A stretch of 64,000 bases of DNA, from positions 860,273 to 924,272 of the forward strand of contig NZ_KI912266.1 in the NCBI RefSeq assembly GCF_000235425.2, in the 5' to 3' direction. Shown one piece after another: positions 15,244 to 40,243 of this stretch (positions are counted from its first letter, which is position 1; every line of letters starts with the position of its first letter). The notes under the pieces are model-generated. The model had not been told where the DNA came from. It did not search any database and worked only from the letters and a program-made list of their open reading frames with translations. Origin of the DNA: Pseudofrankia saprophytica. Its GTDB lineage: Bacteria > Actinomycetota > Actinomycetes > Frankiales > Frankiaceae. The translations under genes and the position numbers were made by a program.

Positions 15244-17889
15244 ATGGGTACCGAAGCGTCGAACATGCTGTCGTCGGGCGACGAGTTCGTGGATGAGACT
15301 GCGGACACGATCGCGATGATGGTGGCTGGTGGCAGCTCGGCCGACGGGGCCATCCGACGCCTCAGCAGGTACACCCCCAATGACGTCCTCGCGAACGCGC
15401 GCGAACTCTACGAGAAGCGGACGCAGCGGGTACGCAGCTTCGACGACGTTCACGTGCTCCTGAACCGAGAGAGGGAGACCGGGACGTGGTATGCCGGACC
15501 GCGCCCCGACCATCGTTTCTGGCCGGTGTTGGAGAAGCGACTTCGTTTCAGCGGCATCCCCGACGAATCCATGAACGCTCTCAATCGAACATCCGATCGA
15601 GTCGTGAGTCTCCTCAGGCCGCCCGGAACGGCCGAGATCAACGTCCGCGGCCTGGTCCTGGGCTACGTCCAGAGCGGCAAGACCACCAACTTCATGAGCG
15701 TGATTGCCAAGGCAGCTGACGTCGGTTACCGGCTCGTCATCGTCCTGTCCGGCCTCACAGAGAACCTCCGTGCACAGACCCAGGGCCGGCTGCAGAGCAT
15801 GCTCGTCGAGGATCTGGAAGCCCACTGGCACCTGCTGACGTATCCGGAGGCCGACTTCACGGTGCGTGGCAACGCGCGCCAACTGCTCTCGAACCCGGAC
15901 CACCGCCTGCTCGCCGTGGTCAAGAAGAACCCACACCGGCTGCGTCGTCTTGTGCGCTGGATGCGCCAGGCCGGTGACGAGGTTGTTGCGAACTGCCCGA
16001 TCCTCGTGATCGACGACGAGGCCGACCAGGCGAGCATCAACGTGAGCCTCAAGGACCGTTCCTCGATCAACGGGCTGATCGGCCAGATCCTCAGGCAGCC
16101 GAAGACCGCCTACATCGCCTACACCGCGACGCCGTTCGCCAACCTGCTCATCGACCCGGAGAAGGAGGATGACCTCTACCCTCGCGACTTCGTGGTCGAC
16201 CTGCCGCGTCCAGACGGATACTTCGGGCCCGAGAAGCTGTTCGGCCGGGACCCTCTGACGATCGACGAGGTCGAGGCCCTGGACCAAGGCCTCGACATCA
16301 TCCGCCAGATCCCTGAGGACGAGGCCGTTGCGATCAGGCCCCCGCGGGTCAAGGACGGCCTCGACCTCTGGGAACCCGATATCACCCTGTCGTTGATCGA
16401 CGCGTTGCAGTGGTTCCTGCTCGCGACGGCAGCGCGTCGTGCGCGTCCCGATGGCGGGCTCCACAACTCGATGCTGATCCACACCTCGATGAACGCCAGG
16501 GCACATTTCGCTACGAAGGCACCGGTGGAGAAGATTCTCCACCAGTTGCGCAAGGACGTGACGAACAGTAGGACGGCCGTGCTCGCCAGCCTGCGCAGTC
16601 AATGGGAGGAGGAGTCAGCCAAGCTGCCGTCCGCCTCCCAGGGCCTGAGCCCCGTTACCTGGGCGGAGATCGAGAAGTACCTTCCCGCCGTGTTGGCGGA
16701 CGTGCGAGTCATCGTCGACAACTACCTTTCGAAGGACCGGCTCAGTTACGGCGACCCGGCCGGGATCACCGCGGTGGTGATCGGCGGCAACACGCTCTCG
16801 CGTGGGCTCACGCTTGAGGGGCTGACCTGCAGTTACTTCGTGCGCGCCTCCTCGGCCTACGACACCCAGCTCCAGATGGGCCGCTGGTTCGGCTATCGCC
16901 GCGGCTACGGTGACCTGCCGCGGATCTGGATGACCGACGAGTTGAAGGAGTGGTTCTTCGCGCTGGCGACGGTCGAGGAGGAGATCCGACGGGACATCCG
17001 CCGGTACGAGGTCGAGGAACTGAGCCCGCTCGAGGTCCCGGTCAGGATCCGCACCCACCCCGCGATGGCCATCACCTCGGCCGCCAAGATGCGCGACGCG
17101 GTTGACGCGGAGATCAGCTTCAGCCGGCACCGCGAGCAGACGATCCTGTTCCACCACCGCGACCAAGACTGGTTGCTGCACAACCAGGACGCGACCCGCC
17201 GGCTGGTACAGCAGGTCGGGGCCACGCCGGTCTCGATGCCGAGCGAGCACCTCCTCTTCAGGAGCGTGCCCTCGGCACTGATCGAGGCGTTCCTCAGCGA
17301 CTACCGGTTCCACGAGGAGGCCTTCCGCATGAAGGGCGATCTCCTTCGCGAGTACATTGCCAGCCAGAACCGGCAGGGCTTCCTGCGGACCTGGAACGTC
17401 GTCGTCATGAACCGGACCGGCTCCGGCTCCGACGGCGCCATTGACCTCGGGCTCGGCCGGCCTGTGGGGCTCCTCAAGCGGAGCCGCCTGCCGATGCCAA
17501 GCAAGCCGTACGCAAACATCAAGGCGCTGATCTCCACGACCGACCGCGTAGCCGATCTCCAGCTCGGCAGCAAGGAACTCGGCGAGCTCCATGGCGGGAA
17601 GCCAGACGACAACAAGCTCCGCGTCTATCGCGAGGATGTCCTTGGCGACGTCGGCCTGCTGTGCGTCTACCCGATCGACAAGGTCTCGGAACCGAGGCGC
17701 TTGGAGGGCTCCTCCCCGCGCGTCGCGCTGGACGCGGTGGAGCACGTGATCGGACTCGGGATCTTCTTCCCGAAGGCGGGCGGAGTCAGGAGCGAGATCA
17801 CCTATAAGTCCGCCGACCTCTCGAACCGGCAGCTCGAGACCGAGATCATCGATCTCGACGCCATCGACGAACTGGACGCGCAGTCCTGA
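15244..17889 (+). CDS. Z1-domain P-loop ATPase
   Basis: 881-residue SF2-like ATPase of the Z1 family. Walker A is LGYVQSGKTTNF (about residue 138), Walker B ILVIDDEADQAS (about 252), and motif III AYTATPFANLL (about 292). The Z1 half follows: VIGGNTLSRGLTLEGLTCSY (about 513), then YDTQLQMGRWFGYRRGYGDL, which takes the place of helicase motif VI. Z1 genes are known from predicted restriction-type loci that pair them with MutL/MORC-like ATPases, C5 methyltransferases and Vsr-like nucleases (described by Iyer, Abhiman and Aravind). That same company is found here. Its likely role is ATP-driven DNA translocation or remodelling. It is the first gene of the main cluster, with a gap of about 140 bp before the next gene. 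Confidence 0.92.
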   Translation: MGTEASNMLSSGDEFVDETADTIAMMVAGGSSADGAIRRLSRYTPNDVLANARELYEKRTQRVRSFDDVHVLLNRERETGTWYAGPRPDHRFWPVLEKRLRFSGIPDESMNALNRTSDRVVSLLRPPGTAEINVRGLVLGYVQSGKTTNFMSVIAKAADVGYRLVIVLSGLTENLRAQTQGRLQSMLVEDLEAHWHLLTYPEADFTVRGNARQLLSNPDHRLLAVVKKNPHRLRRLVRWMRQAGDEVVANCPILVIDDEADQASINVSLKDRSSINGLIGQILRQPKTAYIAYTATPFANLLIDPEKEDDLYPRDFVVDLPRPDGYFGPEKLFGRDPLTIDEVEALDQGLDIIRQIPEDEAVAIRPPRVKDGLDLWEPDITLSLIDALQWFLLATAARRARPDGGLHNSMLIHTSMNARAHFATKAPVEKILHQLRKDVTNSRTAVLASLRSQWEEESAKLPSASQGLSPVTWAEIEKYLPAVLADVRVIVDNYLSKDRLSYGDPAGITAVVIGGNTLSRGLTLEGLTCSYFVRASSAYDTQLQMGRWFGYRRGYGDLPRIWMTDELKEWFFALATVEEEIRRDIRRYEVEELSPLEVPVRIRTHPAMAITSAAKMRDAVDAEISFSRHREQTILFHHRDQDWLLHNQDATRRLVQQVGATPVSMPSEHLLFRSVPSALIEAFLSDYRFHEEAFRMKGDLLREYIASQNRQGFLRTWNVVVMNRTGSGSDGAIDLGLGRPVGLLKRSRLPMPSKPYANIKALISTTDRVADLQLGSKELGELHGGKPDDNKLRVYREDVLGDVGLLCVYPIDKVSEPRRLEGSSPRVALDAVEHVIGLGIFFPKAGGVRSEITYKSADLSNRQLETEIIDLDAIDELDAQS

Positions 17890-18031
17890 CCGGTTGCATG
17901 CGATCGTCGCTTCCGGCTCGCCACGACAGCAAGCCGGAAGTGACGACGAGTCCGGGTAGTCCACTCCGGCGGCGGCGGATAACGTCCGGAGCCAGCCCCA
18001 TCAGCATAAAGCTCAGCGACCGGGAGCTACG

Positions 18032-19975
18032 ATCATCAAGATTTTTTCGGAGCCGTTCCACCCACGCGGCAACATCGATGCACGCGCAGCCCGGCGTGCA
18101 CTGGGACGTTCTGCCCTCGGGCCATGGACGGTCTTTCTCCGCGAGACTCTGCAGAACAGCTGGGACGCACGGATCGCGGGCGGCTCGATCTCGTACCACG
18201 TCGATGCCTGGCGGGTGAACGACGAGCAGCGCCGCACCCTCAGCACGGTGGTGTTCAAGGACCTGCCGGACCATGACGACCCCGCGATCGGCGATCGGCT
18301 CCGCACCGACGACCTGTCCGTCCTCGTCGTCACGGACTCGGGCACTCAGGGGCTTCGAGGACCCACCCGCGCGGACGTCGCTGTGGACGGCCCGACCGAT
18401 TTTGTGGACTTCGTACGAAACATCGGCCGCGACGAAACCAAGCACCTCGGCGCTGGCACCTACGGCTTCGGCAAGGGCGTCCTCTACGAGGCCAGCTCCT
18501 GCTCGACGATCGTCCTCTTCACAAGGTCGACGGACGCGGGCAAGCCGGTTAGTCGGTTCATGGCCGTGGCTCTTGGATCCGCATACGCCCGGCCCGAGGA
18601 TGGGCAGCGTTTCACAGGTCGCCACTGGTGGGGCGAACCCGACGCTACGACCGGCGCCGAGCCCGTGCTGGGCCAAGCTGCCGAGGATCTCGCGGCGAAC
18701 CTCGGGATGACCCGCATTCCCCGCGACGGAACGGGCACCGCGCTCATGGTGTTGGCTCCGAAGCGAGATCCTGGTCAGAACCTCCGCGACGTCGTTGCCC
18801 GCATCGCAGCAGCCGCCTCCTGGCACGCCTGGCCGCACGACATGGGCGCACTCACCGGCGGTCCCTCGATCGATTTCGGGTTCGACTGCGACGGCGATCC
18901 GGTCCCGCTCCCGGCCAGGGACAAAGGCGTGCTGCGGCACTACACGAGCGCCTACCGGCTGGCACAGGCGTTCTACAGGGGTGACATCGAGAAGGGCAAG
19001 CACGGCCCGCACACGGTGACAGAGATCCGTTCCGAGCGGCCACCGAGGAGGCTCGGTGTGCTGGTGAACCGCGGCTTCGAGCGGGCACCGAAGTCTCCTT
19101 CCAACTTGCTCGAGGCGCCCCCAGCCGACCTTGAAAACAGCATCGCGCTCATGAGAAACCCACGGTTCGTCGTCAGGTACCTGGAGATCGGGGTTCCGAA
19201 CAGCTCCGCAGGAGCCGCTGGTGTCTTCGTTGTGGACCCCGACCTGAACGACGACTTCGCCCGCTCCGAGCCAGTGACCCACGATGACTGGATCCCCGAC
19301 AACGCACAGGCGACGAAGCACAAGGCCAACCCCGTTCGCGTGGCCCTGCGCAAGCTGCGGGACGAGGCGAAGAAGACGTCGACACCACCGCCCCTTCCAG
19401 GTTCGGAGGGTCTACACGCCGGCGTCGTTGGCATCTCCGAGCTGCTCGGGCGCTTTCTAGGTGACGCCACCGCAGCCGATCCCGGCTTGTCAGCGGCCGT
19501 AGGGCGCGGCGCGCCCGGTGAAGCAGGTGGGAAGATCTCGAGCGGCTCCCAGCATGAGACCGGGGCTCCGGGCAACGGCGCGGCGGCCCGGAGCGGCGGC
19601 TCCTCTGCACGGGTGTCAGTGGTTCTCGACCGGCGCCACCGACTCGTGGCCGGGGATTCGTCGGGGACGGAGGTTGAGTTCGGCTTCCGATTGAGCAGCA
19701 GCAAGAGGTCACGGACGGTCTACGTCACCGCGGTTCCTCGAGTAATCCTCGACGGCAGCCAGGCCGAGCCCGCCGAGAACGCGCCGGCGGGCGCGATGGT
19801 TCCGTCGGTGCTGGGCTGGCGGCCGGCCGGTAACGATCACGCTTTCGTCGCAGGCAGCCGCCTCGTCGTCCGTCCCGATGATTCGGCCGCATGGACCGTA
19901 CGCATCCTCCAGCCGCGTGACACCGCGGTCACGGTCGTCCTAGACCTGGAGATCGCTGAGGATGGGGTCGGATGA
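18032..19975 (+). CDS. GHKL (MutL/Hsp90-like) ATPase with damaged or non-standard start
   Basis: About 647 residues. The ATP-binding N1 motif (RETLQNSWDA, Glu and Asn at 18143-18157), N2 (VVTDSGTQGLRG) and the glycine-rich N3 (LGAGTYGFGKGVLYEAS) identify a GHKL ATPase. N1 lies upstream of the first usable start (GTG 18215), and the frame back to the in-frame stop at 17957 contains no ATG, GTG or TTG. A gggag at 18022-18026 sits 5 nt before an ATC at 18032, so a rare ATC start is possible. Alternatively one base is missing near 18030: the neighbouring frame reads KLSDRELR just before, and this frame continues IIKIFSEPFHPRGN. The C-terminal part (from about residue 430) is Gly/Ser-rich, then a beta-rich tail. 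It is coupled to the next gene by ATGA. Confidence 0.75.
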   Translation: MIKIFSEPFHPRGNIDARAARRALGRSALGPWTVFLRETLQNSWDARIAGGSISYHVDAWRVNDEQRRTLSTVVFKDLPDHDDPAIGDRLRTDDLSVLVVTDSGTQGLRGPTRADVAVDGPTDFVDFVRNIGRDETKHLGAGTYGFGKGVLYEASSCSTIVLFTRSTDAGKPVSRFMAVALGSAYARPEDGQRFTGRHWWGEPDATTGAEPVLGQAAEDLAANLGMTRIPRDGTGTALMVLAPKRDPGQNLRDVVARIAAAASWHAWPHDMGALTGGPSIDFGFDCDGDPVPLPARDKGVLRHYTSAYRLAQAFYRGDIEKGKHGPHTVTEIRSERPPRRLGVLVNRGFERAPKSPSNLLEAPPADLENSIALMRNPRFVVRYLEIGVPNSSAGAAGVFVVDPDLNDDFARSEPVTHDDWIPDNAQATKHKANPVRVALRKLRDEAKKTSTPPPLPGSEGLHAGVVGISELLGRFLGDATAADPGLSAAVGRGAPGEAGGKISSGSQHETGAPGNGAAARSGGSSARVSVVLDRRHRLVAGDSSGTEVEFGFRLSSSKRSRTVYVTAVPRVILDGSQAEPAENAPAGAMVPSVLGWRPAGNDHAFVAGSRLVVRPDDSAAWTVRILQPRDTAVTVVLDLEIAEDGVG

Positions 19976-20871
19976 AGGCGCCGGTTAGCCTTGGTTTCCT
20001 GACGCCGAAGCCAGGCGACATCCGGGGGGCGGACTGGCATCTGACCGCGGTCGGTCATCCCGTGACCGATGATCCGACCCGACTGCCCGAATGGGATTAC
20101 TTCAAGGACGTCAAGGTCCATCGGACGCTGGAAGTGGACCTGCCCAAGGTGCTCGCCGACTGCCGGCTGCCGGCGGATGCACGTCTCGAGGCGACGATCA
20201 GCTGGCACTCGTCCTGGACCAACCTCCGTGGCGCCCTCCCGGGCATTCCGATCAGCAGTCGCGCCACCGAACTGGAGCTGAAGCTGCCCGGCGAGCAGTT
20301 GGGCGGCCGTCTCACTCTCGACACCCATGTACTGCTTCGCCGGCCCGGTGCTTCTCAGCACCCGCTCGCTCCGGCCCGGCCCGGCACGACGCTGTGGACG
20401 GAAAGCACCATCGTTGATCTCGGAAGTGACGCCCAGCGATTCCCGGTCGTCGCCGTCGACTTCGCTCATGCGGGCATCGCCGACGGCCGTGGTGGCGCCT
20501 GGGCGTTGTCCATCGAGGAGACGGACCTGGCTGCTTCCGCGACCGGTGCCGTTCGGCTCTACCTCAACAGCGCCCATCCGCGGATCCGTCAGATCCTCGA
20601 CGCCGTCGAGCCATCCGCTGACGTGGAGCTGAGAGAGATCATCTTCTACGACGCGGCGAGAACCCTGCTCACCTTCGCGGCCAGCCACGATGATCTCGAC
20701 GACGAGGCGGAGCACGACGCCGGGACCCTGGGTGACCTGCTCGTGGGCCTCGTCCGTGTGTGTTTCCAAGACAGAGGAGTCGCGGGGATGCGTGGGTTGC
20801 TCCGCGAGTCTCCGGGCGAGTTCGCGACGGAGCTCCAAGCGTCCCTTCGACTGCTGGAGCGCCCGGCGTGA
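19972..20871 (+). CDS. Unknown cluster protein A
   Basis: 299 residues; I do not recognise a family. It begins SLGFLTPKPGDIRGADWHLT and has many beta-type hydrophobic alternations (LEATISWHSSW, LELKLPGEQL, AVRLYLNSAHPRI), consistent with a mostly beta fold. An acidic stretch ASHDDLDDEAEHD comes near residue 242, and the C-terminus is helical. There is no signal peptide, membrane segment or obvious catalytic motif. It overlaps the GHKL ATPase gene (ATGA at 19972) and the next gene (GTGA at 20868), so all three are likely made together. An adaptor for the GHKL/Z1 ATPases is one possibility, by context only. Confidence 0.8.
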   Translation: MKAPVSLGFLTPKPGDIRGADWHLTAVGHPVTDDPTRLPEWDYFKDVKVHRTLEVDLPKVLADCRLPADARLEATISWHSSWTNLRGALPGIPISSRATELELKLPGEQLGGRLTLDTHVLLRRPGASQHPLAPARPGTTLWTESTIVDLGSDAQRFPVVAVDFAHAGIADGRGGAWALSIEETDLAASATGAVRLYLNSAHPRIRQILDAVEPSADVELREIIFYDAARTLLTFAASHDDLDDEAEHDAGTLGDLLVGLVRVCFQDRGVAGMRGLLRESPGEFATELQASLRLLERPA

Positions 20872-21611
20872 ACCATGTCTTCCCTAGGCTCGATCCCGGT
20901 GCTGCGCGCGTGCTGCTCGTCGAACGCACCGATGTGCCGCCGGACCAGTTGCGTTCCCTCGCCACCGCCGAACACCCGGGTATGGACTGGTACGCGACCG
21001 GGGGCTCGCGGATTTCACCGGACCGACTGATGGTCATCCGCGACAAGGTCTGCGCGCTGGCGGGCGAGTACGGCTGGCCAATGGCGCCGGCCGGCGGCTT
21101 CACCGACTTCGAGCACCGTCTCTACGAGCTCCTGCTCGGCACCTTGGAAATCATGCCGGCGGACGCGGCCGACGAGGGCGTGTGGTCCTTCCTCACGCTC
21201 GTCCTGCTTCCTGACATCGCGTTCTGGCGCTTCCCGAACACCCAGCGCAGCGCGAGCTACGAACGCCTGATCGGCAAGCCGCGCAATGTCTTCCGACGAC
21301 TGTGGTGGCGGGCCTATGTGCTCGGGGCCGATCTCGCCGGCCAGTTGTTGGAGGACGAGGCAGTGGCCATCATGGAGCGCCCGACGCTGGGTGGTTCCCC
21401 GGCGGTCGCCCGCGCCATCGCTCGAACTCACATTGGCCTGGTCAGGGAGAAGGGGTCGCTGCCGAGGACCGCGCTTATGCGAGAAGCAACCAAGCGGCTC
21501 CGCCGGCTCACCACGATCCTGACGCTGCACGCCATGGATGAGGGCGATCTCCACGAAGTGGTGCAGGAGGTCTTCCTCGAGACGGCCTTCGCGCTCGGGC
21601 AGGACGTCTAG
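20868..21611 (+). CDS. Unknown cluster protein B
   Basis: 247 residues, mostly helical: VNHVFPRLDPGAARVLLVER at the start, then FTDFEHRLYELLLGTLEIMP, WSFLTLVLLPDIAFWRFP, RNVFRRLWWRAYVLG, and a C-terminal HAMDEGDLHEVVQEVFLE. Trp and Arg are frequent. The size and layout recall DUF6339-type proteins, but I cannot confirm this without a profile search. GTG 20868 overlaps the stop of protein A, which fixes the start. The gene ends 23 bp from the stop of the convergent RelE/SF1 helicase gene. Function unknown; its conserved place beside a Z1 gene suggests a structural part of the system. Confidence 0.78.
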   Translation: MNHVFPRLDPGAARVLLVERTDVPPDQLRSLATAEHPGMDWYATGGSRISPDRLMVIRDKVCALAGEYGWPMAPAGGFTDFEHRLYELLLGTLEIMPADAADEGVWSFLTLVLLPDIAFWRFPNTQRSASYERLIGKPRNVFRRLWWRAYVLGADLAGQLLEDEAVAIMERPTLGGSPAVARAIARTHIGLVREKGSLPRTALMREATKRLRRLTTILTLHAMDEGDLHEVVQEVFLETAFALGQDV

Positions 21612-21634
21612 GGGTGCTGACCTCATTGGTGGCG

Positions 21635-23758
21635 TCAGTTGCCAGGCATCTGTAGAAAGGGACTCGGCGCACCTGACCAGGAGACCGAAAGAAACTCGCG
21701 GGCCCGGGTGCAGGCTACGTAGAGGAGGCACAACTCACGCAGGGTGTCTTGGGCGTGAGCGGCCGGGTCGTCGGCCTTCGGCGTGACCGCGTATGGAAGC
21801 GGAATCGAGCGAGCCGAGGCGTCGACGACGGCCATCGCACGGTACTCCAGGCCTTTCATGCGATGCATCGTGCCGATCTCGACGCCGCCACGCTGTTTGC
21901 GGTCGAGCGGGCTGCACGTGATCCCGGCCGCCTGCAGCGCCTCTGCTGCCGCGTCGGCCCCCTTACGAGTGCGGGCCGCGATGCCGATCGCGGCTTCGGC
22001 GACTCCCCCGTCGAGCCAGCCTCGGACCGTCACCACGAGTCCGTCCTGTTCGGCGGCCGACGTCGGGTAGCCACGAGTCGTTGGCGGCTGCGTGCCGCGG
22101 AACGCGGAACGATAGCCGTCCAGACTGTCCGTGCCGGCGTCGAGGTCGTCCACCGTCTGGCCGCCTAGCAGGGCAATCGCCCAGGTGAGAATCTCCTCGC
22201 TGGTGCGGTAGTTGAGACGCAGACGGTACGACCGCCCACGCACGTTGATCCCCATGGTCGTCAGGGCCACACGATGGTCATAGATCCGCTGGTGCGCATC
22301 GCCGACGATGAAGAGGTCGTCGGGCCCGTCGGACACCACAGCGCGTAGCAGTCGCCACTGTACGGGGTGCAGGTCCTGCGCCTCGTCAACGACGACATGT
22401 GGGAACAGATCGCCGACCGACATGGCACGGGCATATTTCGCCGCGTCGTCTGCGAGCTGGTAAAAGGTTCTCGCACCCGACTCGTGCATCAGACCTAGGA
22501 ACCGCTCGACCGCCGTCCAGAGCTGGACACGCTGGGGCCTGGTCAGTGGCTGTGCCCTTCCGGTCCTGGAGACGGACAGGTAGTCCGCCAATGTCCTGGC
22601 CCCCTTAGCGAGGATGACGTTCTCCCACTCCTGGCGGAGCACAGTCGGTTTGAATGGCACGCCGGTCGCGGCCGCCGCGGCGGACCACATCTTCGCCAAG
22701 AGCTCGTCGTCGACGATCACCTTTGGGGTGGCACCCTCGGCCTCGGAGACGATGCGATGCGCGAGCGCGTCGACCGTAGTCACCTCGATCGAGGAACTGG
22801 AATCGATGCCGGACACCGAGTCGAGCGACCTCAGGCTCGCCCGAAGGTCATCGGCGAGTGTGCGCACGAAAGTCGTGAGCAGAACCGGCCGCCTCGACTT
22901 GGGCGGGAGCCTCCGCGCGAGATGATGTGCGCGATGAAGCGCGACGACCGTCTTTCCGGTACCGGCACCGCCGGTGACCCGGACCGGGCCCGCATGCCTC
23001 TCGCGGTAGGCGATCCGACGCTGCGACGGGTGCAGAAAGATCCGCCAGAGCTCCAGTGGGTGGTCCAGTGCCTCCTGTAGTTCTCTGGCGCCCTTCGGAA
23101 CGAACACGGTCGGTGAGCCGAGGGCTCCGGTCGTTGATGCATCCGGAAGCGGCATGCCACTGGTGGCACCGGTCCGGATGCCGAGTTCAGTCCGAACCTC
23201 GCGCAGGGTGAAACCAGCGGCGAGCATCTCCATCGCCTGGTGCTGACTCGCCGGCATTGCCTGGGCAAGCAGGTCGAGGTCGGCGTCGGACCGGACCCGG
23301 CGCACGACCGGGAGGTAACTGGCCTCGATGCCAAGTTCCAGGAGAACGACGTTGTCGTACGCGTCGAACATGCCAGGCGACGGGTGCGCCTCCGCACCGG
23401 GAAGCGCTGCCGCTGCTGCCCGCATCGCGGAGACATCCACGATCTCCACGTCCTGCGTCGCGGAGTTGATCGCGAAGGTGTGGTTCTCCAGCCAGGCGTA
23501 CGCCTTGTCGTGCTCGAGTATGTCGAACAGGATGTAGTGGTCACCTTCCGTAGGTGCCATCACGACGCCCCGCCAGAACTTGGTGACCCGGATCGTCCGT
23601 CCGCGATCATCTGCGATCGCATGGGGTTTCTCGAGATGGAGCCCGGCGATCGTGCTCTCCTGGAACTTCCCGAGGAGCTCCGGAATCCGCTTTTGGACTT
23701 CCTTCGGAAGATCCGGAAGCCGCTTGAAGAAGCTCTGCGCGAAGCCTAGCGACGCCAT
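21635..23758 (-). CDS. SF1 (UvrD/Rep-type) helicase with RelE/ParE-like N-terminal domain
   Basis: 707 residues, encoded against the direction of its neighbours. The first 105 residues look like a RelE/ParE-type domain: FFKRLPDLPKEVQKRIPELL, IRVTKFWRGVV, the HDKAYAWLENH motif and a final NSATQDVEIVD strand. From about 260 it is an SF1A helicase: Walker A VTGGAGTGKTVVALH, Walker B VVVDEAQDLHPVQW, FIVGDAHQRIYDHR, LRLNYRTSEEIL, GTMHRMKGLEYRAMAVVD and LLYVACTRAREFL. All ATPase motifs look intact. ATG 23758 is chosen because the RelE-like fold begins there; the open frame further upstream to 24067 lacks coding character. It is convergent with protein B and divergent from the DrmA-like gene. The product may unwind or translocate on DNA, with a toxin-like module attached. 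Confidence 0.85.
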   Translation of the reverse strand: MASLGFAQSFFKRLPDLPKEVQKRIPELLGKFQESTIAGLHLEKPHAIADDRGRTIRVTKFWRGVVMAPTEGDHYILFDILEHDKAYAWLENHTFAINSATQDVEIVDVSAMRAAAAALPGAEAHPSPGMFDAYDNVVLLELGIEASYLPVVRRVRSDADLDLLAQAMPASQHQAMEMLAAGFTLREVRTELGIRTGATSGMPLPDASTTGALGSPTVFVPKGARELQEALDHPLELWRIFLHPSQRRIAYRERHAGPVRVTGGAGTGKTVVALHRAHHLARRLPPKSRRPVLLTTFVRTLADDLRASLRSLDSVSGIDSSSSIEVTTVDALAHRIVSEAEGATPKVIVDDELLAKMWSAAAAATGVPFKPTVLRQEWENVILAKGARTLADYLSVSRTGRAQPLTRPQRVQLWTAVERFLGLMHESGARTFYQLADDAAKYARAMSVGDLFPHVVVDEAQDLHPVQWRLLRAVVSDGPDDLFIVGDAHQRIYDHRVALTTMGINVRGRSYRLRLNYRTSEEILTWAIALLGGQTVDDLDAGTDSLDGYRSAFRGTQPPTTRGYPTSAAEQDGLVVTVRGWLDGGVAEAAIGIAARTRKGADAAAEALQAAGITCSPLDRKQRGGVEIGTMHRMKGLEYRAMAVVDASARSIPLPYAVTPKADDPAAHAQDTLRELCLLYVACTRAREFLSVSWSGAPSPFLQMPGN

Positions 23759-23888
23759 GGACACCCCGAGCGTTCGATCCGACACACCAGGTGGGTGCGG
23801 AACGCCTGGCTGACAGGCTGCCCGAACCCCGGGAACAGCCGTGTACGCGCCGATCCCGCGACGCAGCACATAGTAGTCTCGCGTCACA

Positions 23889-23934
23889 GGATGACGTCCC
23901 TTCGGCGGTTCCTGCGCGCAAGCTGACGTCATCC
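23889..23934. promoter_or_regulatory. Inverted repeat in divergent promoter region
   Basis: A perfect 10-bp inverted repeat (ggatgacgtc at 23889-23898 and gacgtcatcc at 23925-23934) lies in the 407-bp gap between the divergent RelE/SF1 helicase and DrmA-like genes. It could be a two-site operator controlling both arms of the cluster, or a hairpin. No other gene is present in 23759-24165. Confidence 0.45.
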
Positions 23935-24165
23935 TCCGCATCCCTGGGACAGCACAACGCACACCCGGCGGCTCACGATCGCCGTGCAGCTGCAGTCTGC
24001 GACGAAATCTATCCATACGAGTAGCAACAGCGAACGGAGGGACATGTTCGGCTCGACGGACCATCAACAGTCGCGACGGCGCCTCCGCGTCAGGCCAGCC
24101 TTGCTCTCCGTAACGTAGCCGCGCCCAAAGACGCGCGGCGTGGACGACCGATACAGATCATCCCG

Positions 24166-27429: not shown

Positions 27430-29258
27430 CGATTCGGAAGGTCCGCCGATCGCAGACTGTCAGCCCGTTTGGACCCGGCGCCATCATCGACCTGGTTGGA
27501 GAGTCGTTCGTCGCCGAGGACGTCAGCCGATGGCCGCATGGCGCCGAGGCAATACATATGCCGAGGCTCGCGGCGTCCCTGCAGATCCATGAGATCAAGA
27601 CAGCGCCCGTGCGAGGACTGCCCTACTATCGCTTCCCACAGTGGCTCTTCTGCCCGAGCTGCCGCCGCATGGAGCGTTGGAGCACGGTCCGGGAGAAGAA
27701 GGATCCCGTGCCTCGCTGCCAGAGCTGCACCAGGAAGCCGATCCCACAGCTGGTGCCGATGCGGTTCGTCGCCGTCTGCGCGCGCGGCCACCTTGGCGAC
27801 GTCGACTGGCGACGCTGGGCGCACTCAGCCGCTCGGGCTGGTTCCTCCGGCCGGACGAGTGCCGGGACAAGCAGATGTGCAGACAGCCGGTTGACGTTCG
27901 AAACCAATGCCGGCGTTGGTGGTGGACTGCATTCGACCGAGGTCCGCTGCTCGGTCTGCGGCGCCTCGCGCTCTCTTGAGGACCTGCCGACGAAAGAGTC
28001 ACTCAGACGTGTCGGGCAGCGCTGCACAGGGCGGCAGCCATGGCAGGTCGATGCTGAGGCCGTCTCGTGTGACGAACCCCTGGCCGCGGTCCAGCGAGGA
28101 GCGTCCAGCGTCTACTTCCCGGAGGTCGTCTCCGCCATCGACATCCCGCCGGAGTCGAACTGGAGCGTGCTGAGCAGCCCCGCGGTCCTGCTGAAGGCAA
28201 ACAGCAACTTCAACCTGGTCCTAGACAACCCGGGCCACCCGGCGCGCAGCGTCCTCCTGGGAGTGGCCGCGACCGAGACCGGCCTGTCACTTTCTGAGGT
28301 TGAGTCCGTCCTCTCAGGTCTGGAGACCGATGCGGAGCCGTCGGCCCCGGCCAGCGACCGGGCTGACCTAATCCCAGACGAGTGGATGGCGCTCATCGAC
28401 CCACCGGCAGGCCCGGACGCCTACGACAGGCGCAACAAGTTCGTCGCCCGCAAGAAGGACCTGACGGCGACGACGGTCGACGGACGCCTCAGCGCAGCGG
28501 CAAGTGAGCTGACATACCTGGCCACCGAGGTCACCATGGTCGAGAAGCTCCGCGAGGTCCGTGTCCTGGAGGGGTTCAAACGCCACAAGGCTGAGCAGCT
28601 GATCTCGGCGAACCTCGGCCCTTACCGGACGCTCCTGCCCGGTGTGGAGGTCTACGGCGAGGGATTCTTTCTGCGTTTCAACGAGGATGCGCTGGCGACG
28701 TGGGAGGCGCGGCTCGAGGTGATCGGCCGCGCTCATACGCTGACCGACCGGAAGGAAGACCGCCCAGAGTTCGCGTGGCTGCCCACGCCGACCTCCCGTT
28801 TCCTGCTTCTGCACACGTTCGCGCACCTGCTGCTGCGTCAGACCGCATTCGAGGCCGGTTACTCGGCCTCCTCACTGCGCGAGCGGCTCTACGTCACCGA
28901 CCCGAAGTCCGGCCCCCGCATGGCGGGCGTACTGATCTACACCGCCGCCGGCGACACTGAGGGCACCCTCGGTGGCCTGGTTCGGCTGGGCGAACCCGAT
29001 CGGCTCACGACGCTGGTCGCCGGCGCACTCACCGCCGCACGCTGGTGCTCGTTCGACCCGGTGTGTGGCGAGTCGACGGGGCAGGGACCGTACGGCCTGT
29101 CCATGGCGGCGTGCCACGCATGCTCACTGGTTGCCGAGACCAGTTGCGTGGCCGCCAACCGGCTGCTTGACCGCCGTCTGGTCGTGGACGAGGAGTTCGG
29201 CTTCTTCCGGAACATGCTGGCCGCGATCGACGGCGACCTCGACACCGGCTCATCGTGA
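27426..29258 (+). CDS. DrmB-like DUF1998 protein
   Basis: 610 residues. The N-terminus [19 protein letters not shown] is the DrmB opening. Cys pairs suggest zinc sites: [11 protein letters not shown] with RCQSC (about 74-101), [12 protein letters not shown], and [11 protein letters not shown] (about 175). The C-terminal DUF1998 domain has [19 protein letters not shown] (about 460), [17 protein letters not shown] and CSFDPVCGE with [12 protein letters not shown]. DrmB is the obligate partner of DrmA; in known DISARM complexes it forms part of the DNA-loading unit. GTG 27426 overlaps the DrmA-like stop, and its own stop overlaps the sigma-fusion start, so stoichiometric synthesis is likely. Confidence 0.9.
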
Positions 29259-32182: not shown

Positions 32183-33951
32183 GTACAGAGATCACCGACT
32201 TCGTCGCCGAACTCCACCAGTGGGTGTACGAACGGGCATCGTCCGAGGAGATCATGCTGCGTGACGCGTTCGTGCAGGTCGCTGCGGAGGCTCTGACCGA
32301 GGACGGAACACTCGACAACCCGGAGTCCTGTTTCATCCGGATGCAGTGGAAGAACCGGCATATTGAGGTGGCTGGCTTCGACATCAGCACTGACGGATCG
32401 ATCCTCCGGCTGCTGGCCGCGCACCACGGCGAGGCGATGGTCAAGAAGAGCCAGATCGACCAGCTGGTTCGGTACACCATCAACTTCGGCGAGGCCTGTC
32501 TGGCCGATCTGCCCGACAAGCTTGAGCGGTCCAGTCGGCGGGATATGGCCGAACGGATCCGGGACTCCTGGGCCGACTTCGAGCAGGTCCAAATCATCGT
32601 CCTGACAGACGGAGCCGCCAGCACGACCGGCGCCTGGGCCGACGACCTCACCGTCGGAAACCTGCCGGTGACCATCCAGCTCTGGGACCTGACCCGACTA
32701 CACCGCCTCATGACCTCGGGACGCCGCCAGGAGGAGATCGTCATCGACCTCGTCGAGATGGGGTACGAGATTCCCTGCCTCGAGGCACCGAAGCAGGCCG
32801 ATGAATACCAGTGCGTCCTGGCGGTGCTGCCTGCGCGACTGATCGCCGAACTGTACGATCGTCACCACAGCCGTCTGCTGCAGCGCAACGTGCGCGCCTT
32901 CCTGCAGGCCCGCACTAAGGTCAACAAGGGCATCGCGGAGACGATCAAGGACAATCCCGGTCGGTTCCTGGCGTACAACAACGGCATTTCGGCAACCGCG
33001 ACGGCCATGGAGTTCGAGATCGCCGCCGACGGCCGCCGGATCATCCGCACTCTCCGGGACCTTCAGATCGTCAACGGCGGCCAGACGACCGCGTCGTTGC
33101 ATGTCGCGCTTCGCGGCGGTGTCGAGGGACTCGCCGACGTCCATGTGGCCACCAAGTTCACGGTTGTCGGCGACCGGCTCTTGGACGAACTCGTCCCGAA
33201 GATCTCGATGTACGCTAACTCGCAGAACGCGGTCACCACGGCCGATTTCGAGGGCAATAGCGCCTACCACGTCGAGATGGAGAAGCACTCACGTGCTATC
33301 TGGACGCCAGCCGCCGGTGTCGTGGCGCGACAGACGCACTGGTACTACGAGCGGGTCCGCGGCCAGTACGACGTCGACCGGGCACGCTTCATGACACAGT
33401 CGAAGCGGAAGCAGTTCGACCTCGACAACCCCAAGAGCCAGAAGATCACGAAGACGGACGCCGCCAAGTACGAGTACGCCTATCGGCGCCAGCCACACGT
33501 CGTGAGCCTCGGTGGCCAGAAGTGCTTCCAGGAATGGTCGACGAAAGGCGAGCCGAGCATGAACGACGCACCGACCGACGCCGAGTTCCGCGACCTGGTC
33601 GCGAAGGCAATCCTGTACGCCCGGGTGCGCAAGCTCGTCCAGCAGCAGGGCTACGGTGGCTATCTCGCCAACATCGCCGCGGCCACGCTCTCCCTTGTCG
33701 TCGACCGCTTCGGCGGTGCGATCGACCTGAATCGGATCTGGCGAATGCAGGCGGTCCCGGAGGCACTCGAACGGATCGTGCCCGACCTGGCCACGCGGGT
33801 CCGCGACGTCATCACCAACCCGCCGGGGAACGGGAACGTGACCGAGTGGTGCAAGAAGGAGGCCAGCTGGCACGAGGTACAGCTGATCAAGTGGACACCC
33901 CCGGCCGAACTGGTTGCCGAGCTGGCCGTCCAGGCTTCCGATGCCGCCTGA
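32179..33951 (+). CDS. AIPR-family abortive-infection protein
   Basis: 590 residues. The AIPR signature is clear: [20 protein letters not shown] (about 237-256), [31 protein letters not shown] (about 296) and [17 protein letters not shown]. The N-terminus (about 1-200) has alpha/beta character ([28 protein letters not shown]) consistent with a PD-(D/E)xK-like or sensor portion, which I cannot assign firmly. AIPR proteins were first linked to abortive phage resistance and recur in restriction-type islands. ATG 32179 overlaps the sigma-fusion stop, and the methyltransferase start overlaps its end. It is a candidate effector or DNA-binding subunit. Confidence 0.9.
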
Positions 33952-35947
33952 GGCGCCGGACCGACGCCCGGCCCGCGACGACGGCGGCCGGCACGGCGGG
34001 TATGGGGTCAGGCTGGTTCGGGGACCGTTCGTACGACTGGAGCCCCACGCAGAGAGTTGCGCGGACACCAAGGAGCTAGCCGCGCTCGTCGGGCGCCTAC
34101 GGGCTGAGGATCCGGACCAGTTGCTCGTCGCCGACCTGTTCTCGGGGGCCGGAGGGCTGAGCCTCGGGCTGGACCAGGCCGGGCTGCGGGTGGTGCTCGG
34201 CGTCGACCATGACTCCGAGGCGACGGAGACACATCGCCATCATTTCAGCGGTCTGACGCTCGACGAGGACCTGTCCGACCCGGCGAAGGTCGATGAGATC
34301 GCCGAGCTGATCCGGTCGTTGCGGCTGGACGTCGTGGTCGGCGGGCCGCCTTGTCAGCCGTTCTCTCGGGCGGGCCGGTCAAAGATCCGGCACAGGGCGC
34401 GACTGGGGCTGGCCGAGGCGCACGACCGACGCCGGGACTTGTGGGAGTCGTTCCTGGCGATCGTGCGCCATGCGAAGCCAGGCTGCGTACTGATGGAAAA
34501 CGTGCCGGACATGGCGCTGGACCGGGAGATGTTCATCTTTCGAACCATCGTCCACACGCTCGAGGGGCTTGGCTACTCGGTCCAGGCCCGGCTCGTCGAC
34601 ACCTCCGAGTATGGCGTTCCCCAGTTTCGGCAGCGTCTGATCATCGCTGCTATGCATGGCGGAGCTACCTTCAGTTGGCCGAAGGAGGCAACCGAGCGAG
34701 TCCACCTGTGGAACGCGATCGGAGACCTCCCCGAGGTTGAAGGTGGATGGCGGCCGCCGGGAGGGCCGGCCGGTTGGTCGATGTATGACCCGACCGAGCC
34801 GCAGAACAGCTTCCAGCGCGCCATGCGCGCGAAGGTTCCTCGCGGCGAGCGGGACCGCGTCTACGACCACATCACCCGACCGGTGCGGCCCGACGACCGC
34901 GCGGCGTTCGAGCTCATGGACGAGACGACGCTCTACTCGGACCTGCCGGCCGAGATGAAGCGCTACCGCGACGACATCTTCGACGACAAGTACAAAAGGC
35001 TGAGCGAAAACACCTTCTCGCGGACGATCACTGCCCACATCGCCAAGGATGGCTACTGGTACATCCACCCACGCCAGAGTCGGACCCTGACCATCCGCGA
35101 GGCGGCGCGTCTGCAGACGTTCCCCGACCACGTCCGCTTCGCTGGTCCGCCCTCGGCCGCGTTCAGGCAGATCGGAAATGCGGTGCCGCCACGCCTCGGC
35201 GAACATCTCGGCCGGGCACTGGTTCAGAGCCTCGACGCACCCACAGTGCCACAGCCAAGCACCGCCGAACTCGCCAACCGGCTCACCGCCTGGTTCGCCG
35301 AGCAGCGCGAGACCACCCTGCATGTCCCCTGGCTGACGGCCAGAACTCGATGGCAGGTCGTTGTCGCCGAGATGTTGTTCGACCGAGTGACTGTCGAGCA
35401 GGTCCGGCTGTTGTGGCCGCTGCTCGCTGGCTGGAGTAGCCCCGCCACCACGGTCGAGGCCGCGGAGGGATTCCTCGAGTCGGCCAGTTGGATCAGGCGT
35501 CGGCATCGTGCGGAGCAGCTTCTGGAGGCGGCCCGCTGGCTCCTAGAGCGTCCAGAGGCGCTGGACGCGCCCGATCCGGTCGGGAAAATCCCGCATGTAG
35601 CCCAGTCTGTCATCGATCTGGCTGTCCTCGTCGTCCGGACGGCGGACGTCGACGAGAGTCCGGAGCCCGTGCTCGTCGGCAAGGGGGTGCTGCGCCTAGC
35701 GGCCCGGCATGATGACAGCTCGGTCGACTTCCAGAACCGGATGTCCGACGGCCGGCTCGCGGTGGCCAGGCTCATCGGTGGTCCCGGCACCGCCCGCGAG
35801 GCGCATCTGGCGTTGGTGGCGCTGGCGAACTCGGTCTGCCGGCCGCATGCCCCGGTCTGCGCGAGCTGCCCTCTCGCCGCCACCTGCCGCCATGCGAACC
35901 AGCCTGACAGGACCGGGTCGACGAAGGCGCGACAGAAGAAGACCTAG
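33941..35947 (+). CDS. DNA cytosine-C5 methyltransferase fused to EndoIII/MutY-like domain
   Basis: 668 residues. The C5-methyltransferase motifs are complete: I DLFSGAGGLSLGLDQAG (about 65), IV GGPPCQPFSRAG with catalytic Cys (about 138), VI MENVPDM, VIII QFRQRLIIAA, IX LTIREAARLQTFPD, X RQIGNAVPP. From about 450 a HhH-GPD-like region follows (PWLTARTRWQVVVAEMLF, WIRRRHRAEQLLEAARWLL) and ends in a perfect EndoIII Fe-S loop, C-x6-C-x2-C-x5-C (Cys 633, 640, 643, 649). The usual catalytic Lys and Asp are lost: the expected GRKTA reads AQSVI and VDTH reads VGKG. ATG 33941 overlaps the AIPR stop by 11 nt; ATG 33914 is possible. It should modify the host's target sites; the fused domain may bind damaged or mismatched 5mC sites. 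Confidence 0.9.
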   Translation: MPPEAPDRRPARDDGGRHGGYGVRLVRGPFVRLEPHAESCADTKELAALVGRLRAEDPDQLLVADLFSGAGGLSLGLDQAGLRVVLGVDHDSEATETHRHHFSGLTLDEDLSDPAKVDEIAELIRSLRLDVVVGGPPCQPFSRAGRSKIRHRARLGLAEAHDRRRDLWESFLAIVRHAKPGCVLMENVPDMALDREMFIFRTIVHTLEGLGYSVQARLVDTSEYGVPQFRQRLIIAAMHGGATFSWPKEATERVHLWNAIGDLPEVEGGWRPPGGPAGWSMYDPTEPQNSFQRAMRAKVPRGERDRVYDHITRPVRPDDRAAFELMDETTLYSDLPAEMKRYRDDIFDDKYKRLSENTFSRTITAHIAKDGYWYIHPRQSRTLTIREAARLQTFPDHVRFAGPPSAAFRQIGNAVPPRLGEHLGRALVQSLDAPTVPQPSTAELANRLTAWFAEQRETTLHVPWLTARTRWQVVVAEMLFDRVTVEQVRLLWPLLAGWSSPATTVEAAEGFLESASWIRRRHRAEQLLEAARWLLERPEALDAPDPVGKIPHVAQSVIDLAVLVVRTADVDESPEPVLVGKGVLRLAARHDDSSVDFQNRMSDGRLAVARLIGGPGTAREAHLALVALANSVCRPHAPVCASCPLAATCRHANQPDRTGSTKARQKKT

Positions 35948-36104
35948 GCCAAGCAGTCGGCAGCATCCCCGGCCGCCGCGTCCTTCTGTCGCCTTGCCCA
36001 AACGCCAAGGGGGTTGGCGGAGCGTCCATATTGCTTGTGGCCGGATGGCGGGCATGCCCAGCCGCTGTGGGGCGAGCGTGGCCCGGGCTGGAAGAATCCG
36101 GTAC

Positions 36105-36638
36105 GTGACCAAGGACGGCCCAGGCGCCGCGGACGACATGGGCCCCAAGGCGACGCGGCCTACCTGGGTCGCGACCGACGCTGGCAACCACCTGCGGGGC
36201 CGCAAGGCACAGAACACCAAGCCTGAGGTCGCGCTCCGGAAGGCCGTGCACGGTCTTGGCCTGCGCTTCCGGATCCACCAGACGGTGGCTCCGCGATGCA
36301 CCCCCGATTTTGTGCTCCCTCGCTGGCGACTCGCGGTCTTCGTCGATGGTTGCTTCTGGCATGGCTGCCCCGAGCACGGGATGAAGCAGTATCGCGGCCC
36401 AAACGCCGAACTGTGGCGCCAGAAGATGGAGGCAAACCGCAACCGGGACCGACGCAACGACGCCGCGCTCGCTGAGGCCAGGTGGGCGGTGTTGCGCGTA
36501 TGGGAGTGCCAGGTACGGCGAAGTGCGGGCGAGGCTGCCCTGCTCGTGCAACGCGCCGCTCAGGACGCGAAGAGGCCGTCTGCAGACAATGCCTCGTCGA
36601 GCCTGGACGCCGCCCGCGCCGCCGACCTACGGGCGTAG
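36105..36638 (+). CDS. vsr: Vsr-family (very short patch repair) endonuclease
   Basis: 177 residues. Conserved Vsr blocks: GRKAQNTKPEVALRKAVH, LRFRIHQTVAPRCTPDFVLP with the catalytic Asp, VFVDGCFWHGCPEHG with the zinc/active-site Cys and His, LWRQKMEANRNRDRRND, and WAVLRVWECQV. Vsr nicks next to T:G mismatches formed when 5-methylcytosine deaminates, so it fits beside two C5 methyltransferases; related proteins also act as restriction nucleases. GTG 36105 is chosen with a GGAAG upstream; ATG 36138 is an alternative. Its 3' end overlaps the convergent second methyltransferase gene by 79 bp. It follows the first methyltransferase by about 157 bp. Confidence 0.9.
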   Translation: MTKDGPGAADDMGPKATRPTWVATDAGNHLRGRKAQNTKPEVALRKAVHGLGLRFRIHQTVAPRCTPDFVLPRWRLAVFVDGCFWHGCPEHGMKQYRGPNAELWRQKMEANRNRDRRNDAALAEARWAVLRVWECQVRRSAGEAALLVQRAAQDAKRPSADNASSSLDAARAADLRA

Positions 36639-38542
36639 GCGCAGCCCGCTGACGCGAGCGGGCAGGCGGCACAGTCCGGCGTGGTCGACTCGCACACTGT
36701 CATAGCAAGATGGCGGATCGCTGCCATCCGCATGGGCGCCTCCTCGCCCCTCTTCGCCACCCGGCCCGGCTCGTCGGTCCCGGATGTTTGGTCAAATTTC
36801 TGCTCACCCGTGCCGACCAGCCTTGACAGGTCGATGCGTCCATTCGTCAGCAAATTTTGCTCGTCGGAGGTGGTGTCAAGGAATCGGGCTGCAACCCGGA
36901 CCGCGCTGGCGCCGGCCACGAGGACGTCATACCCACGGAGCAACTTGAAGACCTTCGCCTCGGCGGGCCGCAGTTTGAGGAGCTTGATAACGTCGCCAGC
37001 GTCCTCTGACAGCTCGACATCAACAATCTTTCGGAGCCGCTCAAGCCTGCGGCGGGTGTTGCTCGGCGCGACGCGCAAACAGGCCTGCAGCGTGGCGTCG
37101 TCAAGGCGATCGCACCCGCTCAGCACGGACAACGCGGGCATGTCCTCTGCGGGGATCGGCTGGGCTCTGGACAGCAGCGCGCAGGCCGCCGCGAGCAGCG
37201 GCGTCATCGCCTCGCCTGGAACGGCCGTCCATGCCTCGCTGCGCGACAACTTGGCCGCCCACTCCACCAACAGCCGATGGACCTCGGGCCAGTTGGCCGC
37301 CGGCGCCGACGAGGCTCCTGATTCGTCGGCGGACATCGGTCGCAATGCCTGCGCCGCCGCAGTGCCCGCAAGAGGCGGCACGGCATTACCTATCTGCTTG
37401 AAGGCGTCGCTTCGATAGCCTGCGAATCGAAACCAATCCGGGAAGGTCTGGATGCGCGCCGCCTCCCGGACCGTCAGCGTCCGTAGTTCGGACGGGTGAA
37501 TGTACCAGTAGCCGTCCTTCGCGATGTGCGCGGTGATCGTCCGGCTGAGCTCCTTCCAGCCGAGCCGGTTGTACTTGTCGTCAAAGGAATCCGACCGGTA
37601 CCTCTTCATCTCGGCCGGAAGGTCCGAGTAGAGCGTTGTCTCGTCCATGAGCTCGAACGCCTTGCGGTCGTCGTCGCGGACTGGGCGGGTGAAGTGATCG
37701 TAGACGAAGGTCGCGTCAGCTCCCTGCCGCATCTCGCGGGCAAACTCACTCAGCTCTGCGTTTTCGACGTAGGGCAACCGGCGTGCCCCAGTGGACAGGA
37801 GCAACCGAGGAAGGTCACCGATCGCGTCACAGACAGTCGTCTGCCGCTTCTCGTCTTCTTTCGGCCAAGTGAAGGCGCCCCCATCCCGCCGCGCAAGCAG
37901 TATGAGGCGACGGCGATGCTGGGGTACCCGATGCTTCCACGTGTCGATGATTCGGACCTGGGTTACATATCCGGACACTTCCAAATCGCCGACTATACGG
38001 CGTATTGTCTGGAAGTCATCACCCAAACCCATGTCGGGGACATTCTCCATCAGCACCGCGCGTGGCTTCAGCTCCAGCACGATCGACAGGAACGCCATCC
38101 ACAGCTGGCGGCGGGGGTCGATGCGTGAGCGGGTGCCCTGTTCGACCAGACTACGAATCTTGCTCGACCCAGCCCGGCTGTATGGCTGGCATGGAGGCCC
38201 ACCGGCTACGAGATCAATCTCAACACCGTTGAGCGAGGCGACCAAGTCGGCTCGGACATTGGGCTCACTCAGATCGAGTTGCAGCGCGCGGCCACGGAAG
38301 TTGGCACGGTGGGTCTCGATTGCACGCTGGTCATGATCGACGGCCGCGACCACCGTCCATCCGGCCTGCTCTAGCCCCAGGCTGAGACCCCCTGCTCCTG
38401 CGAACAGATCCAGAGCCAAGCGACGACCGGCCGCCACCTCCTCCGCGCACCAGGCAGCGAACTCGTCATCGGGCGGACTTCCAGCGCAGGGTGGAAGCCG
38501 TAGTAGATCACTGCGCTCTAGGCGCACGCCGTACGTAGCCAC
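36560..38542 (-). CDS. Second DNA cytosine-C5 methyltransferase with EndoIII-like C-terminus
   Basis: 660 residues, paralogous to the first methyltransferase but convergent with it. Motifs: DLFAGAGGLSLGLEQAGW, GGPPCQPYSRAG (catalytic Cys), MENVPDMGL, QHRRRLILLA, LTVREAARIQTFPDW, QIGNAVPPL. The block before motif IX (AFELMDETTLYSDLPAEMKR, then ITAHIAKDGYWYIHP) is nearly the same in both proteins, whereas the variable region before it differs, so target sequences may differ. The C-terminal domain ends in Cys 617, 624, 627 and 634 (C-x6-C-x2-C-x6-C, one residue longer than EndoIII), and the catalytic Asp position reads VAGAS. GTG 38542 is chosen because GGGGAGG lies 6 nt upstream; TTG 38557 is the longer alternative. 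Confidence 0.88.
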   Translation of the reverse strand: MATYGVRLERSDLLRLPPCAGSPPDDEFAAWCAEEVAAGRRLALDLFAGAGGLSLGLEQAGWTVVAAVDHDQRAIETHRANFRGRALQLDLSEPNVRADLVASLNGVEIDLVAGGPPCQPYSRAGSSKIRSLVEQGTRSRIDPRRQLWMAFLSIVLELKPRAVLMENVPDMGLGDDFQTIRRIVGDLEVSGYVTQVRIIDTWKHRVPQHRRRLILLARRDGGAFTWPKEDEKRQTTVCDAIGDLPRLLLSTGARRLPYVENAELSEFAREMRQGADATFVYDHFTRPVRDDDRKAFELMDETTLYSDLPAEMKRYRSDSFDDKYNRLGWKELSRTITAHIAKDGYWYIHPSELRTLTVREAARIQTFPDWFRFAGYRSDAFKQIGNAVPPLAGTAAAQALRPMSADESGASSAPAANWPEVHRLLVEWAAKLSRSEAWTAVPGEAMTPLLAAACALLSRAQPIPAEDMPALSVLSGCDRLDDATLQACLRVAPSNTRRRLERLRKIVDVELSEDAGDVIKLLKLRPAEAKVFKLLRGYDVLVAGASAVRVAARFLDTTSDEQNLLTNGRIDLSRLVGTGEQKFDQTSGTDEPGRVAKRGEEAPMRMAAIRHLAMTVCESTTPDCAACPLASAGCAYARRSAARAASRLDEALSADGLFAS

Positions 38543-38944
38543 CGCCCGCCTCCCCAAAGCCGTCAGCCCGGACTAGTCGCATCCGGAGCAGCCACCGACG
38601 CGCGGTAGTAGTTAACAACAGCTACGCCAGATGACCCTCAGGGGACCTGTCGGCCCCTTCCCGAAGCACACGGAGACCACCACCAGGTCCTTCGCACAGA
38701 CGTTCTACCACCGGGATGCGACAAACTCTGGAGCTCCAGACACGGTCTCGAGCCGCCACAGCGGCGCCGTCGGCGTCGGCGTCGGTCGCACCACGCACGG
38801 GCGGACCGTCGTGGAGCCATCCAACGCCCACCTGCGCCAACTACACGGCAGAAACCGAGACAACACCTGTGGCGCGCTGTCCACAGCGCCGAGGTGTGTG
38901 GGAGCCTGGAGAAGGTCCGCGAAGGAACGAACGAGGGGGAACAG
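38543..38944. other. Divergent intergenic region
   Basis: About 400 bp between the second methyltransferase and the MORC ATPase gene, transcribed away from each other. It must hold two promoters. A relatively AT-rich patch (gtagttaacaacagc) lies near 38607. No gene seen. Confidence 0.4.
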
Positions 38945-40243
38945 GTGACGGCACGCAGGACGTACGAGGTGACCCCGTCGGCGGCCCGCCTCACCCGGTC
39001 GCTCCGCGACGTCGGCTACGACTTTCCCGCCGCCGTCGCCGATCTCGTCGACAACAGCGTCTCCGCCGGCGCCACCCACGTTCAGGTGATCATCGAGTTC
39101 GACGGTGTCAACTCCCGCGTGTTCATCGCCGATGACGGCATCGGGATGAGCGAGAACGCCTTGGTAGAGGCACTGCGCTTCGGGTCGCGGCGCACCTACG
39201 AAGCCACCGACCTCGGCCGTTATGGCCTTGGCCTGAAGACCGCGTCCCTCTCGCAGGGGAGGTCAGTCACCGTCGTCACACGGCGGTCCGCCTCCGTCGA
39301 CCGCATCTTCGTCCGCGAGCTCAACCTCGATCTCATTGAGGAACTCGACGAATGGCTCGTGGTGGCGCCGAAGCGCTCCGCCGACACCGACCGAGCGCGC
39401 GAGCTGCTTGGCGATGGCGCTGGCACCGTCGTCCTCTGGCGTCTGCTCGACCGCGTCCTGCCCGAGAAACACCCGGAGGGCGGCTGGGCCCGACGTCGGA
39501 TCGATACATACGCCCACCGCACCGCCGAGCATCTCGCCATCGTCTTTCACCGCTTCCTTGAAGGACTACCAGACGGCCGCAAGGTGACGATCTCGGTCAA
39601 TGGTGAGAAGGTTCGCCCTTGGGACCCATTCGCGCCGGGCGAGGAGCACTGCCACAAGCTGCCGGAGCAACAATTCGAGATCACCGTCGGCGACGCATCG
39701 GGCACAGCCCACCTATGCCGCTTTGTTCTGCCCGCCCGTACCCAGTTCTCCTCGCAGGACGAGTTCGAGCGCCTGTCGGGCCCGCTGAACTGGAATCGCC
39801 AACAGGGCCTATACGTCTACCGCGCCGACCGGCTGGTCCAGTGGGGTGGATGGGCTGGTATCCGTGGCATCGACGAGCACACCAAGCTGGCTCGTGCCTC
39901 GCTCGACTTCGACACGTCGCTCGACCCAGTTTTTAATATCAATGTGTCGAAAATGCGCGTCTCGATACCGCCGCAGCTCCGCCAGATGATCGCGACATCG
40001 GTTAACGAGCTGTGCCTCGCCGCCAACGCTGCCTACCGCCGCTCATCGCCCCGCGGCAACATGCCGCTGCACCTCGGCGCCGGTCAGCCGGCACCCACTC
40101 CAAGCGCGGACTTGGCGCTTGCAGGCCTCGCGCTCCGCTCGGCGGCTATGCAGTCCGGTCACTACGACGCGCTGGAAAGTATCTTCGCCATCGTCCGCCG
40201 CGACGCCCCCCAGATCGCGACCGCGCTCGGCCTGACCAGCTGA
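38945..40243 (+). CDS. MORC/MutL-like GHKL ATPase
   Basis: 432 residues. GHKL motifs: N1 ADLVDNSVSAGATHVQV (about 32), N2 IADDGIGMSENALVEAL (about 62), N3 LGRYGLGLKTASLSQG (about 92). The usual catalytic Glu of N1 (E-x-x-x-N) is Asp here, although the Asn is kept. A beta-rich C-terminal domain follows with QQGLYVYRADRLVQWGGW and LARASLDFDTSLDPVFNINV, a block also recognisable at the end of the sigma fusion. MORC-like ATPases of this kind belong to predicted restriction systems with Z1, C5 methyltransferase and Vsr genes. They probably clamp or loop DNA. GTG 38945 follows an AGGGGG ribosome binding site; the frame upstream to 38894 is less likely. It is the last gene of the cluster. Confidence 0.9.
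   Translation: MTARRTYEVTPSAARLTRSLRDVGYDFPAAVADLVDNSVSAGATHVQVIIEFDGVNSRVFIADDGIGMSENALVEALRFGSRRTYEATDLGRYGLGLKTASLSQGRSVTVVTRRSASVDRIFVRELNLDLIEELDEWLVVAPKRSADTDRARELLGDGAGTVVLWRLLDRVLPEKHPEGGWARRRIDTYAHRTAEHLAIVFHRFLEGLPDGRKVTISVNGEKVRPWDPFAPGEEHCHKLPEQQFEITVGDASGTAHLCRFVLPARTQFSSQDEFERLSGPLNWNRQQGLYVYRADRLVQWGGWAGIRGIDEHTKLARASLDFDTSLDPVFNINVSKMRVSIPPQLRQMIATSVNELCLAANAAYRRSSPRGNMPLHLGAGQPAPTPSADLALAGLALRSAAMQSGHYDALESIFAIVRRDAPQIATALGLTS

Follow-up and report, generated by a model that had tools for sequence, protein, structure and literature searches.

A DrmC-less, DISARM-related gene family that apparently travels with its own sigma factor, found beside a second defence-like module in Pseudofrankia saprophytica

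Pseudofrankia is related to Frankia, which lives in symbiosis with plants, and a 64,000-nucleotide stretch of the P. saprophytica genome (contig NZ_KI912266.1; hereafter the window) carries a run of 13 genes that raises the question of whether a single defence system or several are encoded there. An earlier note on the window had listed these genes as one composite cluster, either a new system or a fusion of two, and all 13 are indeed present (Table 1). Judged from gene content and homology, two phage-defence-like modules lie side by side, a left module and a DISARM-related right module. The DrmA and DrmB proteins of the right module belong to an apparently undescribed DISARM-related family that lacks DrmC and travels with its own sigma factor, a new point that the note did not see.

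Profile comparisons relate the right module to DISARM. The window DrmA matches the PADLOC model at 5e-211 and scores 908 bits with the NCBIfam model, slightly under the equivalog cut-off of 950, while DrmB scores 416 bits against a cut-off of 240; the DrmA and DrmB homologues proposed in the note are both profile-supported. The dual methyltransferases that it described are likewise found, as two C5 enzymes with matches to the DrmMII model. Canonical DISARM is rejected for want of a DrmC match; the phospholipase D (PLD) family had no match among the 20 window proteins (13 to 46 kb) covered by our family scans. The window further differs from DISARM in adding a compact SF1 helicase and a sigma factor, and GHKL, AIPR and Vsr proteins are also present. 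DrmC itself appears to be non-essential in DISARM, according to a published study (Bravo 2022, PMC9142583).

To place the window, we compared 83 DrmB loci, comprising five Frankiaceae copies and 78 others. The set consists of matches above the cut-off plus G583, which has a weak DrmB and no DrmA that we could find, and it counts the split copy G657b. A compact SF1 helicase directly follows DrmB in 10 of the 78 loci outside Frankiaceae, and an RpoD-like sigma gene lies nearby in 9 of these 10 loci but in 0 of the other 68. DrmC was found in none of the 15 SF1 loci, Frankiaceae included, compared with 38 of the 83 DrmB loci overall, using a home-made hidden Markov model (HMM) grown from one seed that could miss a very divergent PLD protein. 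The SF1 counts were made with HMMs other than the iterated ones, which admitted UvrD helicases. The Frankiaceae proteins and four sister loci (G205, G195, G112 and G057) went into the making of the compact-SF1 HMM and therefore match it by construction. The note was right that the DISARM part is odd, but for a reason that it did not give: this DrmAB is one of a DrmC-less group in which every member has a compact SF1 helicase and 14 of the 15 loci also have a sigma factor of the RpoD type. A four-gene example of the DrmAB-SF1-sigma unit (sigma, DrmA, DrmB and SF1) is found on a plasmid of Streptomyces fungicidicus.

Phylogenetic trees agree with this grouping. In a quick DrmA tree of 82 rows (simpler model, G583 not included), the window falls within a 40-row half without any of the 38 DrmC loci (branch support 96), whereas the other half contains these 38 together with four loci lacking a DrmC match (G162, G073, G297 and G010). 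A branch with support 84 sets the 15 SF1 loci apart, and with G706b they make 16 rows with support 100. The sigma tree has 34 rows: 13 linked sigmas, one MzaA and 20 of the 23 other RpoD-like matches from six genomes, the three weakest matches and the short G057 linked sigma having been left out. The linked sigmas split from the 20 others and MzaA with support 100/99, and a linked sigma in the tree also comes from four of these genomes (G000, G205, G532 and G610). Some subgroups are common to both trees: G623 with G205, G666 with G659, G532 with G195, and the five Frankiaceae. Since the DrmAB-SF1-sigma family is one clade, the linkage is, on these trees, co-inheritance after one origin and not repeated linkage.

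In Frankiaceae, the compact SF1 helicase, the sigma factor and a GHKL C-terminal part are fused in one protein, of 975 amino acids (aa) in the window, and the sigma-70 fusion that the note described does have an RpoD-like part. AlphaFold predicts folded blocks at about residues 20–360, 428–727 and 820–965 joined by disordered linkers (mean pLDDT 73.8, pTM 0.45), and a Foldseek search returned SigA-type chains, a result that bears on the sigma block and on neither of the others. The first block has the SF1 helicase fold with a Walker A motif that has lost its lysine and with DEGQ/DEAQ changed to DGGQ or DGTR; both nucleotide-binding motifs are kept in all eight free-standing relatives aligned. 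The last block is similar to GHKL proteins of the MzaB type in their C-terminal half. Scanning genome contigs with two short peptide patterns, which could miss distant fusions, recovered the fusion at four Frankiaceae loci. A plasmid search with the whole protein gave no match at 1e-60, and a viral-contig scan with one compact SF1 gave 11 pattern matches and no relatives.

Linked sigma proteins elsewhere carry additional parts. The Streptomyces fungicidicus protein (L134:3154-6975; 1,273 aa) has two similar blocks and a long charged tail after the sigma part; the G205 protein (L039:34-3627, minus strand; 1,198 aa) has sigma-70, then a helix-turn-helix, then a part with GHKL-like motifs, and the G623 protein (1,197 aa) resembles it. 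An AAA_5 gene, a McrBC-component gene and an SF1 helicase adjoin three sigma-DrmAB loci (L100:15788-18912, G057 and G666).

Sigma factors start transcription, and the linked sigmas retain the −10 melting motif and a −35 helix that reads VTRERIRQ in 13 of 14 proteins and LTRERIRQ in G205. The sigma factor, either free or fused to a dead helicase, might, in this DISARM-derived family, direct the DrmAB core to unmethylated foreign DNA, at its promoters or at polymerase that is initiating there, giving a form of transcription-coupled restriction; we offer this as a speculative and, on balance, improbable proposal. The sigma-carrying partner could deliver DrmAB to DNA that the polymerase has melted. 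In PMC9142583, DrmAB is reported to bind single-stranded DNA or 5′ overhangs, and unmethylated DNA to stimulate its ATPase more strongly than methylated DNA does. Among the papers that our literature searches returned, none, as judged from its listing, connects a sigma factor with DISARM or DrmAB or describes one as part of a DISARM-type restriction complex. The recurring unit, with only four genes on the Streptomyces plasmid, would make a link between transcription and restriction testable in a small system, and it adds a new, DrmC-less class of DrmAB loci.

A serious rival is that the sigma factor is only a regulator that switches on the DrmAB genes, the Frankiaceae fusion with SF1 just coupling neighbouring genes. 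We regard this as possible, if somewhat unlikely. In its favour, the promoter-binding motifs are intact, but the fusion places the sigma part in a protein of the operon, at equal amount, together with a degenerate SF1 block and a GHKL part. No promoter-like pattern was found upstream of drmA in 14 loci with a simple pattern that can miss one, a null result that tells against both regulation and promoter targeting. Several further observations weigh against sigma-guided DrmAB. Outside Frankiaceae the sigma factor has a gene of its own, which in 6 of 9 loci is divergent from drmA, an arrangement that would also suit a plain regulator. DrmA distances correlate far better with SF1 (r 0.97) than with sigma (0.64 over 11 loci, 0.55 over 8 deep loci), a contrast that also favours the regulator; species descent alone could add to such correlations, and the DrmA and sigma trees disagree on the positions of G017, G610 and G706a. 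No sigma is seen near the DrmAB-SF1 genes of G112, Deinococcus gobiensis or Photobacterium, so the wider DrmAB-SF1 family can do without one. Some copies look broken, since the G057 sigma (L043:4183-5514, plus strand) is without the region 4 kept in the related G659 and G666 proteins and the G666 SF1 match is spread over two open reading frames. A glutamate found in all 20 other sigmas and in MzaA, at a position that by E. coli numbering we take to lie on the surface touching the polymerase clamp, is histidine in 12 of 14 linked sigmas, which may mean weaker polymerase binding. Finally, all cases of SF1-sigma linkage belong to a single clade, so the loci counted do not represent independent events.

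The two modules could also be unrelated systems that are merely neighbours in a defence island and share no parts, which we think doubtful. Each half occurs alone, and the UvrD/GajB-like helicase gene lies tail to tail with the left module. However, a C5 methyltransferase lies inside the cluster in all five left-type loci outside Frankiaceae and a Vsr gene in four of the five, whereas the left module of the window has neither, the nearest being right-half genes 12–17 kb away. Moreover, right-half methyltransferase 1 shares 52% identity with its counterpart in the complete left-type locus G169 and 47% with that in G281, and the right-half GHKL protein shares 53% with its counterpart in each. 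The halves may nevertheless be interdependent, since the left module, unlike these relatives, lacks a C5 methyltransferase of its own. The simplest reading would be that Pseudofrankia gained the left module later and that this module uses modification genes already present. It counts against a tie between the halves that their adjacency is not proven in G005, where they lie on two contigs.

An MZA system that took up DrmA and DrmB is very unlikely. The window has homologues of MzaB, MzaC and MzaE, but these score below the cut-offs (218/850, 377/1500 and 345/1050 bits); the last is the AIPR protein that the note had recognised. The MzaD PD-(D/E)XK model (DUF4420) matched none of the 20 window proteins, although it does match the Thalassospira protein. 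The comparison rests on PADLOC, NCBIfam and one Thalassospira plasmid locus. The sigma part reaches only 278 bits with the MzaA model (cut-off 800) and differs from the one MzaA in architecture and clade, so that by these comparisons it is not MzaA; MZA membership is accordingly rejected, and the DrmAB-linked sigma would independently parallel the sigma protein of MZA, which is itself unexplained. ARMADA and other YprA-family systems (Bell 2025, PMC12458937) share a YprA-family helicase and a GajB-like SF1 helicase with the window, but no BrxHII-like helicase or PglX-like methyltransferase was recognised here, and DrmA and DrmB are separate genes, as in DISARM. The main text of that paper does not mention MORC, AIPR, MZA or GHKL, and sigma occurs solely as a supplier name. 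Least probable is one new integrated system of all 13 genes, the first of the note's alternatives: gene order is the same in G005, but each half is found without the other, the very finding that the note had said would refute it, and a fusion of two is nearer the evidence.

In the left module, the MORC label is motif-based, as Pfam gave no match, and the frame is open from its listed start with the first ATG/GTG/TTG at 18215, so that the true start is uncertain. The protein without a named family has no clear PDB relative; a PD-(D/E)XK nuclease was rejected because seven sequences show no conserved motif and the model is a beta-sandwich. That structural test covered mainly residues 11–155, barely reached the C-terminal helices and excluded no family. 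No restriction endonuclease (RE)-fold or PD-(D/E)XK gene was recognised among the 20 window proteins scanned (13 to 46 kb). The right-module helicase that the note called RelE-SF1 matches UvrD/GajB, whereas its N-terminal part is RelE-like by published analogy only, with no RelE match in Pfam. A RelE-GajB-like SF1 helicase is a feature of type II ARMADA.

Table 1. Genes of the cluster, in window coordinates
Feature	Position	Strand	Module	Remarks
First gene of cluster	15244..17889	+		
MORC-like GHKL protein	17960..19975	+	left	N-box and glycine motifs; has homologues
Protein without named family	19972..20871	+	left	predicted beta-sandwich and C-terminal helices
DUF6339 protein	20868..21611	+	left	
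UvrD/GajB-like SF1 helicase	21635..24067	-	right	5′ end uncertain
DrmA (YprA-family helicase)	24166..27429	+	right	
DrmB (DUF1998 family)	27426..29258	+	right	
Fusion protein, 975 aa	29255..32182	+		degenerate compact SF1 helicase, RpoD-like sigma-70, GHKL-type C-terminal part
AIPR protein	32179..33951	+		MzaE-like, below MzaE cut-off
C5 cytosine methyltransferase 1	33914..35947	+		start uncertain
Vsr-type endonuclease	36150..36638	+		start approximate
C5 cytosine methyltransferase 2	36560..38557	-		42% identity to methyltransferase 1
GHKL ATPase	38894..40243	+		MzaB/paraMORC-like

The G+C content is 0.64–0.69 over about 12 to 47 kb and 0.69–0.75 to the left of that. Because it also drops in the right flank (to 0.68 at 53–58 kb), composition gives a hint of acquired DNA and no more. 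On the left, the cluster is adjoined by a NERD nuclease-domain protein with a kinase-like part (13134-14870), which has no relative in the relatives' loci compared; such a protein also adjoins the sigma gene of G706a (L098:1-4056). To the right lies a DUF5615 protein (40497-40862, minus strand) that might be a toxin whose partner is encoded by the next gene.
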